A program made the translations under genes and the position numbers. From a virus: DNA of 21,569 bases. The notes under the pieces were generated by a model, which saw only the letters and a list, made by a program, of their open reading frames with translations, did not search any database and was not told the DNA's origin. The stretch spans positions 1-21,569 of the IMG/VR virus record IMGVR_UViG_3300046777_002051. One strand, written 5' to 3'. Positions 17,402 through 18,896 of the stretch are shown here, in pieces (position 1 is the stretch's first letter; every line of letters starts with the position of its first letter).

Positions 17402-17408
17402 CGAAAGG

Positions 17409-17533
17409 TTATCTCTTCATAGATGCACCTTGACCCATCAGCTAATGGGTTCTGGAGGGATAGTGTTAAACACTAAGGTGGTTCGATTCCACCTGGGTCT
17501 GATCAACCCCTGGGTGCATCTTTGTAGAGATAA
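17409..17533 (+). ncRNA. tRNA-like RNA enclosed in a 16-bp flanking stem
   Basis: TTATCTC (17409-17415) pairs with GAGATAA (17527-17533), and AGATGCACC (17421-17429) with GGTGCATCT (17513-17521), separated by a 5x5 internal loop. Inside, GACCCA/TGGGTC (17432-17437/17494-17499) could be an acceptor stem. TAGT/ACTA with loop GTTAAAC could be an anticodon arm (TAA). GGTGG-TTCGATT-CCACC is a perfect T arm. There is no encoded CCA, unlike every other tRNA here, and no variable loop between the putative anticodon and T arms. It is a degenerate tRNA or a tRNA-derived RNA. Confidence 0.5.
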
Positions 17534-17535
17534 TT

Positions 17536-17610
17536 GAACCAGTAACTCAGTGGTAGAGTAGCGGCCTCTTAACCCGCTTGTCGTGAGTTCGACTCTCACC
17601 TGGTTCTCCA
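17536..17610 (+). tRNA. tRNA-Lys (anticodon CTT)
   Basis: Acceptor GAACCAG/CTGGTTC, then T and encoded CCA. The D arm is ACTC/GAGT with AGTGGTA. Anticodon stem GCGGC/CCCGC has one C-C mismatch next to the loop CTCTTAA. The T arm is GTGAG-TTCGACT-CTCAC. It decodes AAG. It directly follows the enclosed tRNA-like RNA. Confidence 0.88.
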
Positions 17611-17959: not shown

Positions 17960-17971
17960 GTTGCCGCTCTT

Positions 17972-18060
17972 GGCCCGTAGCGGAGAATAAGTCCACATGG
18001 GGTGCACACTCTGTGGGGTCACTAGGCAGATTCCAAGCTGCTCAGGCTAACGGGCCGCCA
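17972..18060 (+). ncRNA. tRNA-ended RNA without a proper cloverleaf
   Basis: A perfect 7-bp acceptor GGCCCGT/ACGGGCC, then G and CCA, gives tRNA-like ends 89 bases apart. Inside, CCACA/TGTGG closes a 14-base loop and GCAG/CTGC or AGC/GCT form small arms. No T loop of the usual kind sits beside the acceptor and no clear anticodon is seen. Upstream CCGCT (17964-17968) can pair with AGCGG (17979-17983), with the acceptor 5' strand in the loop. It is either a degenerate class II tRNA or a tRNA-mimicking RNA. Confidence 0.45.
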
Positions 18061-18066
18061 AATTCT

Positions 18067-18140
18067 TGGGGAATAGTTCAATGGTAGAACAGCGGACTCT
18101 GAATCCGTTAATCTTAGTTCGAGTCTAGGTTCCCCAGCCA
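18067..18140 (+). tRNA. tRNA-Gln (anticodon CTG)
   Basis: Acceptor TGGGGAA/TTCCCCA, G, encoded CCA. D arm GTTC-AATGGTA-GAAC, anticodon arm GCGGA-CTCTGAA-TCCGT (one G-U), T loop TTCGAGT. It follows the tRNA-ended RNA by six bases. Confidence 0.9.
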
Positions 18141-18192
18141 ATTGGTGTCTATAGCGAGATAGTTCGTGAGTGCCCATCGCCAGTCTCAATAA
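18141..18192 (+). other. Leader complementary to tRNA-Lys(TTT)
   Basis: Three segments pair with the tRNA just downstream: GGTGT with ACACC (18144-18148/18244-18248), TATAGCG with CGCTATA (18150-18156/18234-18240), and GTGCCCATCGCCA with TGGCGATGGGCGC (18170-18182/18209-18221, one U-G). About 25 pairs make a rod that excludes the tRNA's D and anticodon arms and leaves its acceptor 5' strand in a 26-base loop. Confidence 0.65.
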
Positions 18193-18276
18193 GGACCGGT
18201 GACCCGAGTGGCGATGGGCGCGGACTTTTAATCCGCTATACAAACACCGTGGGTTCGAGTCCCACCCGGTCCTCCA
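18193..18276 (+). tRNA. tRNA-Lys (anticodon TTT), atypical
   Basis: 84 bases with encoded CCA. Acceptor GGACCGG/CCGGTCC. D stem CCC/GGG with a long loop. Anticodon arm GCGGA-CTTTTAA-TCCGC. T arm GTGGG-TTCGAGT-CCCAC. The variable region TATACAAACACC is 12 bases without a stem, unusual for tRNA-Lys, and the D arm (GACCCGAGTGG) resembles Ser/Leu tRNAs. Its body is complementary to its own leader. It may be a converted class II tRNA; the anticodon reading assumes the symmetric 5-7-5 arm. Confidence 0.75.
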
Positions 18277-18418
18277 ACTGTGGTAAGGAAAGTGAACTGA
18301 AAGCCATCCTAGGTCACGGCAAATAAGTTCTGGCGGACAGATCATCCGCTAAAAGGAGAATGGGATGCCCTTTGTTTGGATGTTGGGCTGATACCTCACC
18401 TGCCACAAAACAGATCAA
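18277..18418 (+). other. 142-base non-coding stretch, partly foldable
   Basis: No convincing gene. A perfect hairpin GCGGA-CAGATCA-TCCGC (near 18333-18349) looks like an anticodon arm but lacks U33. TGTGG (18279-18283) faces CCACA near 18413-18417. A short frame MPFVWMLG (from 18365) follows GGAG, but is probably chance. Confidence 0.4.
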
Positions 18419-18488
18419 CCTTGGTATGGCAAAGTGCTGTCTGATGAGCTCCATTCTAAGTGCGGTGCAATTCCGACACCAAGGGCCA
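18419..18488 (+). ncRNA. Short tRNA-like RNA with perfect acceptor stem
   Basis: Acceptor CCTTGGT (18419-18425) pairs perfectly with ACCAAGG (18478-18484), then G and CCA. The whole is only 70 bases, shorter than usual. A CGG/CCG T-arm candidate has loop TGCAATT rather than TTCRANN, and the anticodon arm is weak (possibly CTCCATT). TGCCA just upstream can pair with TGGCA inside, again with the acceptor strand in the loop. It is probably a degenerate or minimal tRNA. Confidence 0.45.
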
Positions 18489-18498
18489 AATTTAGACT

Positions 18499-18680
18499 GG
18501 ACTTATTTCGTCTGTGGTAGATAGCGGAACTGCAGTCTGCGACCAGATGAAAGTAGTTTATTAGTAGAACGGCGAGTCGATTCCCCTTGCTCTGGTGAGA
18601 AACAGAGTCGACGGGTTTCAGTGATCCGGTGTGAGGTGCGATGCCTCACCTTTTGTTTCTACCACAGACGAAATAAGTCC
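18499..18680 (+). ncRNA. 182-base structured RNA closed by a perfect 23-bp stem
   Basis: Bases 18499-18521 are the exact inverse complement of 18658-18680 (ends GGACTTATTT and AAATAAGTCC). Inside are GTCGA/TCGAC (18576-18580/18608-18612) stacked on CTCTG/CAGAG (18590-18594/18603-18607) across a 9-base bulge, an arm GCGGA/TCTGC near 18524, and GTGAGGT/GCCTCAC (18631-18637/18643-18649) followed by TTTT. No open frame of note crosses it. It belongs to no RNA family I recognise. Confidence 0.6.
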
Positions 18681-18693
18681 TAATACCACAATT

Positions 18694-18896
18694 GAGGTGA
18701 CGACCCGAGCGTAAGCGTCCATGGCGTGAGAAGCTAAGATAATTAAATGTGCAGATGGTTTCGCACAGCCTCAAACTAATTTGTATGTGTGCCGTAACAG
18801 GTAAACGGGGATGTAGTAGCAGCGCGGAACGGGCAAAATACTATGAGGCACCTAGTGATCATAGAGTTGTGGGTTCGAGTCCCACCACCTCCACCA
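18694..18896 (+). ncRNA. 203-base RNA with tRNA 3' half (T arm and CCA)
   Basis: GAGGTG (18694-18699) pairs with CACCTC (18886-18891), and the end reads C, A, CCA. A perfect T arm GTGGG-TTCGAGT-CCCAC (18869-18885) abuts the acceptor strand. Between the ends lie hairpins TGTGC/GCACA (18748-18752/18763-18767), CCGT/ACGG (18792-18795/18805-18808) and CTATGA/TCATAG (18841-18846/18859-18864). The size exceeds a class II tRNA by about 115 bases. Possibilities are a tRNA with an insert or a short tmRNA-like RNA. No clear tag frame or P2 helix was found. Confidence 0.5.

Follow-up and report, generated by a model that had tools for sequence, protein, structure and literature searches.

According to Monttinen and Loytynoja (2022, PMC8794818), RNA hairpins can arise by template switching, in which a local reverse-complement copy, made in one event, provides one of the two arms. 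Similarly, PMC7202029 and PMC3820800 present template switching as the mechanism of quasi-palindrome-associated mutations, whereby the arms of imperfect inverted repeats become more alike through templated synthesis. The possible consequences for a tRNA are illustrated by the mouse n-Tr20 C50U variant, for which PMC8915964 describes a stable non-native fold, in competition with the cloverleaf, that impairs processing at the 5' end, RNase P being slowed 20-fold on the precursor. The locus described below, a phage tRNA-Lys(TTT) gene whose leader is largely complementary to the tRNA itself, resembles these systems and also departs from each of them. Whereas the histories of the RNA genes were reconstructed in PMC8794818, the source is a phage tRNA here and the ancestral state is judged from distant homologues only. 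Whereas existing imperfect repeat arms converge in the quasi-palindromes (PMC7202029, PMC3820800), about 43 nt of new complement needs explaining here. Finally, the effect of n-Tr20 C50U, a single-base change in the body of the tRNA, was measured (PMC8915964), whereas the competing fold is predicted here and involves a complementary leader. The literature searched contained nothing on a self-antisense tRNA leader. The locus is most likely best read as a one-off inverted duplication and not as a new class of RNA switch.

The tRNA-Lys(TTT) gene and its array

The window, i.e. the whole stretch of DNA analysed, is IMG/VR record IMGVR_UViG_3300046777_002051 (21,569 bases). Its reading frames include what look like a B-family DNA polymerase, a RecA/UvsX-like protein, and a DnaB-like helicase (names based on our own reading of the translations, without a family search), and its gene set looks like that of T4-like phages. 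The DnaB-like helicase has hundreds of relatives in IMG/VR. A tRNA array was located by ARAGORN at 17.5-20 kb of the window, in which a leader separates the tRNA-Gln(CTG) and tRNA-Lys(TTT) genes (Table 1). Two other spacers of this array measure 6 nt (Tyr-Ile) and 3 nt (Ile-Trp), and 48% of the tRNA-tRNA spacers overall (n = 695) are at most 12 nt long, about 4% being 30-70 nt long. No promoter site was listed on the + strand of the leader.

Table 1. Coordinates of the leader, its tRNA genes, and copies of the structured RNA that heads phage tRNA arrays
Feature	Position	Strand	Remark	Basis
tRNA-Gln(CTG)	18067-18140	+	upstream neighbour, bounds the leader	ARAGORN, Rfam
Leader (tRNA-Gln / tRNA-Lys spacer)	18141-18192	+	52 nt	sequence; tRNA bounds from ARAGORN
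Rod 5' arm	18144-18185	+	probable inverted (reverse-complement), slightly diverged copy of tRNA 18206-18248	collinear alignment, best of 462 phage tRNAs; fold
Strongest helix, 5' strand	18172-18182	+	GCCCATCGCCA, partner 18209-18219	fold; pair probabilities 0.86-1.0
tRNA-Lys(TTT)	18193-18276	+	intact cloverleaf, long variable region, U73	ARAGORN, Rfam 47.8 bits, homologues
Rod 3' arm	18206-18248	+	tRNA segment from D loop to variable region, apparent copy source	fold, alignment
Structured RNA, L009	8338-8490			
Structured RNA, L140	7862-8250		three in tandem	
Structured RNA, L010	5270-5414			
Structured RNA, L164				
Structured RNA, L006	4733-5225			
Structured RNA, L006	6779-6881			

The tRNA-Lys gene was assigned anticodon ttt by ARAGORN and belongs to Rfam family RF00005 (tRNA) with 47.8 bits, against a gathering threshold of 29; it has all four arms and a CCA end. 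In the region of the leader and its predicted fold, the tRNA family alone reached the Rfam gathering score, the other overlapping matches being below threshold. Judged from its sequence, the gene is an intact, ordinary-scoring member of a phage tRNA-Lys type with a long variable region. The same type occurs in Rhodobacter phage RcXuper (79.8% identical, blastn), Ruegeria phage V10, the Caulobacter phiCbK group, and Brevundimonas phage Kikimora, as well as in 25 IMG/VR stretches (e.g. L115, L104, and L113). The suggestion of the preliminary description that the locus encodes a decoy RNA merely mimicking a tRNA finds no support in a gene that scores as an ordinary tRNA, of a type common to many phages. 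Given the long variable region and U73, the amino acid that the predicted tRNA-Lys(TTT) would carry is not obvious. A long, class II-like variable region with U73 or A73 was observed in the tRNA-Lys (CTT, TTT) genes of many phages (the gene of the window; L092 4013-4100 and 6508-6595; L093 516-697; L101-L125), and these genes are close in sequence to the tRNA-Tyr gene of L006.

Pairing of the leader with its own tRNA

Three collinear blocks of complementarity join the leader to the tRNA, exactly where the preliminary description had placed them. They comprise 5 pairs between GGTGT (18144-18148) and ACACC (18244-18248), 7 pairs between TATAGCG (18150-18156) and CGCTATA (18234-18240), and 13 pairs, one of them U-G, between GTGCCCATCGCCA (18170-18182) and TGGCGATGGGCGC (18209-18221). 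The loop between the two arms of the resulting rod indeed spans 26 nt (18183-18208). The pairing as such was thus correctly recognized, but the count of about 25 pairs was too low, as RNAfold gives about 33. This is due to two extra helices in the minimum-energy fold, namely GAT (18158-18160) with ATC (18231-18233), 3 pairs, and AGTTCGT (18161-18167) with GCGGACT (18220-18226), 7 pairs including two G-U. The latter helix competes with the final two pairs of the 13-pair block, and the best register, with small bulges between the helices, is 5+7+3+7+11 = 33 pairs, collinear between leader positions 18144-18182 and tRNA positions 18209-18248.

Folding of positions 18141-18276 (RNAfold) yielded a minimum free energy of -59.5 kcal/mol (z -4.9, dinucleotide shuffles of this whole stretch), versus about -41.6 kcal/mol for the leader (-9.3) and the tRNA (-32.3) folded separately; the drawn cloverleaf on its own amounts to -27.1 kcal/mol. 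In the ensemble of positions 18067-18300, the pair probability of the acceptor stem was 0.0 and that of the main rod block was 0.86-1.0. Hence, the mutual exclusion of rod and cloverleaf proposed earlier holds in prediction, the rod being far more stable, by about 18 kcal/mol, in calculations that omit modified bases, Mg2+-dependent tertiary contacts, and chaperones and are therefore biased against tRNAs. According to folds of the growing transcript, a helix between the leader and the D arm is possible from nt 75-82 of the leader-tRNA transcript, when the anticodon arm, the T arm, and the 3' acceptor strand are still absent.

The complementarity between the leader and the tRNA is real and not a product of chance, as had been surmised from the 13-pair block. 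The energy of the duplex was -52.7, compared with a mean of -29.0 for 5000 dinucleotide-shuffled leaders, the strongest of which reached -49.4; none of these 5000 matched the real duplex, and a Gumbel extrapolation gave a p-value of about 2e-4. In an identical test on 661 distinct phage tRNA leaders, the leader ranked first by z (-7.3) as well as by folding gain (-17.9; runner-up, -13.7), and z values across the tests of leader-tRNA pairing ranged from -6 to -7. Furthermore, its best partner among 788 phage tRNAs was its own tRNA, followed by the homologous tRNA-Lys(TTT) of L115. Other tRNAs with z < -4 in the 661-leader test were those for Met in L103, Trp in L150, and Ala in L101. The tRNA-Trp was rejected as a similar case, since a neighbouring tRNA inside its leader explains the signal. 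The leader of the tRNA-Ala (L101 2481-2607; z -4.3, gain -7.3) resembles an inverted, though weaker, copy of the T-arm half of that tRNA, and may be a second fragment of this kind.

Origin and possible role of the leader

A comparable leader was found in none of the 27 other tRNA-Lys genes scored by the same pattern, some of which are near-duplicates of one another (z -2.6 to +1.4, versus -6.6 here). Similarly, no comparable complementary leader was found in further annotated phage tRNA-Lys genes, including those of RcXuper, the phiCbK group, and V10, which are of the same tRNA type. The tRNA-Lys(TTT) of RcXuper was considered as a homologous rod, as its leader pairs with the D arm with a gain of 10 kcal/mol, but its z is about -2.5 and its sequence is unlike that of the window leader, so that this faint partial analogue was not counted as conservation. 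The rod-forming tRNA segments are present in homologues that lack the leader (TGGCGATGGGC in L104 and L113; CGCTATACAACACC in L115), as are the CGCTATA..ACACC segments in the same tRNAs. Hence, it is the leader that changed; the tRNA side appears to be old and the complement to have been acquired by the leader. Neither kept complementarity nor compensatory changes, as would mark a conserved regulatory leader or RNA switch, were seen among the 27 other tRNA-Lys genes, and the sequences examined gave no evidence for conservation or function of the leader rod. Intact tRNA genes without conserved complementarity, i.e. the pattern that the preliminary description itself had named as contradicting its proposal, are what the homologous tRNA-Lys genes display, and a conserved class of such RNAs is not supported.

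The leader alone had no match in 50,697 phage records, and the exact core of the tRNA-Lys of the window had none in viral contigs. Two neighbouring genes used as anchors retrieved nine distant loci for one gene and none for the other. No relative with the order Gln-Lys was found elsewhere, in records that may omit those nearest to the window, nor was a close relative with an empty site, free of the insert. L005 carries a tRNA-Gln similar to that of the window, without an adjoining tRNA-Lys. Among the sequences examined, the complementary leader appears to be private to the window contig, but it may be shared within the nearest lineage.

We consider it probable that the leader, specific to this contig, goes back to an inverted partial duplication or a template-switch insertion, has diverged slightly since, and most likely lacks a selected role. 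In the order of events that we infer, a contiguous stretch of about 43 nt, from the D loop to the variable region of the tRNA-Lys(TTT) gene, would have been copied in reverse complement into the short upstream spacer, with template switching in replication or a foldback duplication as the most likely mechanism, and the copy would afterwards have gained small indels and a few changes. The resulting transcript would fold as a rod, about 33 bp long, with which the cloverleaf is incompatible. If this predicted rod is true, RNase P would act poorly on the precursor, and maturation of this one tRNA would probably be slowed or blocked.

Indeed, the reverse-complemented leader aligns collinearly and with small gaps to its tRNA segment, as expected for an inverted copy, and its alignment score with the adjacent tRNA-Lys (17.5) was the best among 462 phage tRNAs. 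The copy fills the spacer, as it starts three bases past tRNA-Gln and ends about seven before tRNA-Lys; the spacer minus the copy would be about 10 nt long, which fits the short spacers of the array and the general distribution. In addition, all collinear blocks are accounted for together if a single contiguous segment was copied once in inverted orientation. Copy and target differ by a few small indels, two changes giving G-U pairs, and one mismatch, as counted on the alignments. Three points speak against this reading. The differences are rich in indels, and of the three base changes, two preserve the pairing as G-U, which also fits weak selection for the rod. Furthermore, the donor may have been another class II tRNA, since the tRNA-Tyr of L006 matches the copy almost equally (15.5 versus 17.5). 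Finally, the searches yielded no close relative with the empty site.

Preserved pairing in the copy would also suit a processing switch, in which the rod holds back maturation of the tRNA and has to be resolved first, by some condition, a helicase, or an RNase, allowing the phage to set the amount of this tRNA. The mutual exclusion of rod and cloverleaf is compatible with this, as is a rod that is favoured in energy and can form first in transcription; however, no homologue has a complementary leader and nothing points to a partner, a ligand, or an alternative fold of the leader, so that we hold a switch to be unlikely. That a self-antisense leader holds the phage tRNA as a rod and releases it under certain conditions, which would constitute an undescribed cis-acting maturation switch, is more doubtful still. 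As to the donor, the leader may be a decayed inverted copy of another class II tRNA gene, e.g. tRNA-Tyr, its complementarity to tRNA-Lys being a by-product of shared tRNA sequence. The reverse-complemented leader has AGAC, GGGCACT, and ATAGA in common with the L006 tRNA-Tyr, but its score with the adjacent tRNA-Lys is higher and no possible source lies nearer, which makes such a donor quite unlikely.

Another role would be that of an RNase III substrate, the rod serving to be cut as double-stranded RNA, or of a decoy that occupies an anticodon nuclease attacking tRNA-Lys(UUU). With about 33 imperfect pairs, the rod is plausible as a double-stranded substrate, and tRNA-Lys(UUU) is targeted by a bacterial immune nuclease that a phage tRNA-Lys variant can evade (PMC12409363). 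However, the tRNA itself would be cut together with the rod, most of the anticodon-loop bases are placed in a rod helix or a 4-nt bulge and not in a tRNA-like loop, and the leader pairing is not conserved, so that both roles are very unlikely. Given the homologous tRNA-Lys genes without a complementary leader, neither the processing switch nor the RNase III site put forward in the preliminary description found support. An artefact of metagenome assembly or amplification, by which an inverted fragment became attached to the tRNA, would be in line with the single contig, but is highly improbable, as chimeras are normally exact copies, whereas this copy has diverged by indels and base changes and ends neatly between two tRNA genes. 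Finally, chance complementarity, selected because many stretches were inspected, is scarcely credible: tRNA stems are partly self-complementary, which makes moderate leader-tRNA pairing common, other spacer pieces of the same array reach -45 to -46 kcal/mol, and one leader among 661 is extreme by construction, but no shuffled leader was equally strong and the collinear blocks span the entire 43-nt segment.

Neighbouring structured elements and implications

Positions 17403-17541 (+) of the window represent a member of a conserved structured RNA that heads phage tRNA arrays, the long stem of which (GUUGUCUCUUCAUGGRUACAUC / GAUGUAUCCUUGWAGAGACAA) encloses a variable interior. This RNA was found at 46 places in the collected loci (31 distinct sequences), 43 of which lie within 500 nt of a tRNA, in all 43 cases on the same strand as the tRNA; many copies end 3-10 nt before the first downstream tRNA. 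The consensus of the main subfamily (23 sequences) has 32 pairs, with 17 of 736 cells unpaired and 14 pairs showing two-sided changes, the conservation of the stem being partly built in, as the loci were gathered by the stem pattern. The interior of the window's member differs from that of the main subfamily; a T-arm-like interior was seen in the versions of the window, L164, L010, and L006. No Rfam match at gathering score was obtained in the sources searched, and no convincing match of the main subfamily was found among annotated phage records.

The array contains further structured sequences. Tracts that are tRNA-like, including acceptor-like ends and tails of GCCA or ACCA, yet were not called by ARAGORN, occur at 17971-18058, 18426-18489, and 18807-18896; for the last of these, a match to the tRNA-like ends of tmRNA scored 26.7 bits, under the gathering score. 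At 18499-18680, a perfect 23-bp inverted repeat (GGACTTATTTCGTCTGTGGTAGA) flanks 136 nt that contain tRNA-like pieces and, at 18631-18649, a terminator-like hairpin. This inverted repeat and the stem at 17409-17533 were considered as parts of the leader rod and rejected, as they are separate elements. Elsewhere, L155 11684-12008, on a viral contig with many tRNAs, matches permuted and alphaproteobacterial tmRNA (98.7 and 67.8 bits, respectively).

The structured RNA heading the arrays is a more promising nearby object than the leader rod. As a switch, the latter would, if true, represent a cis-antisense control of tRNA maturation without precedent to our knowledge, a reading that the comparative evidence does not support. 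As a mutation, the probable inverted duplication offers a clear example of one local inverted copy giving a tRNA gene a long hairpin that is predicted to be disabling, and it bears on the loss of tRNAs in phage arrays and on the birth of new RNA hairpins.
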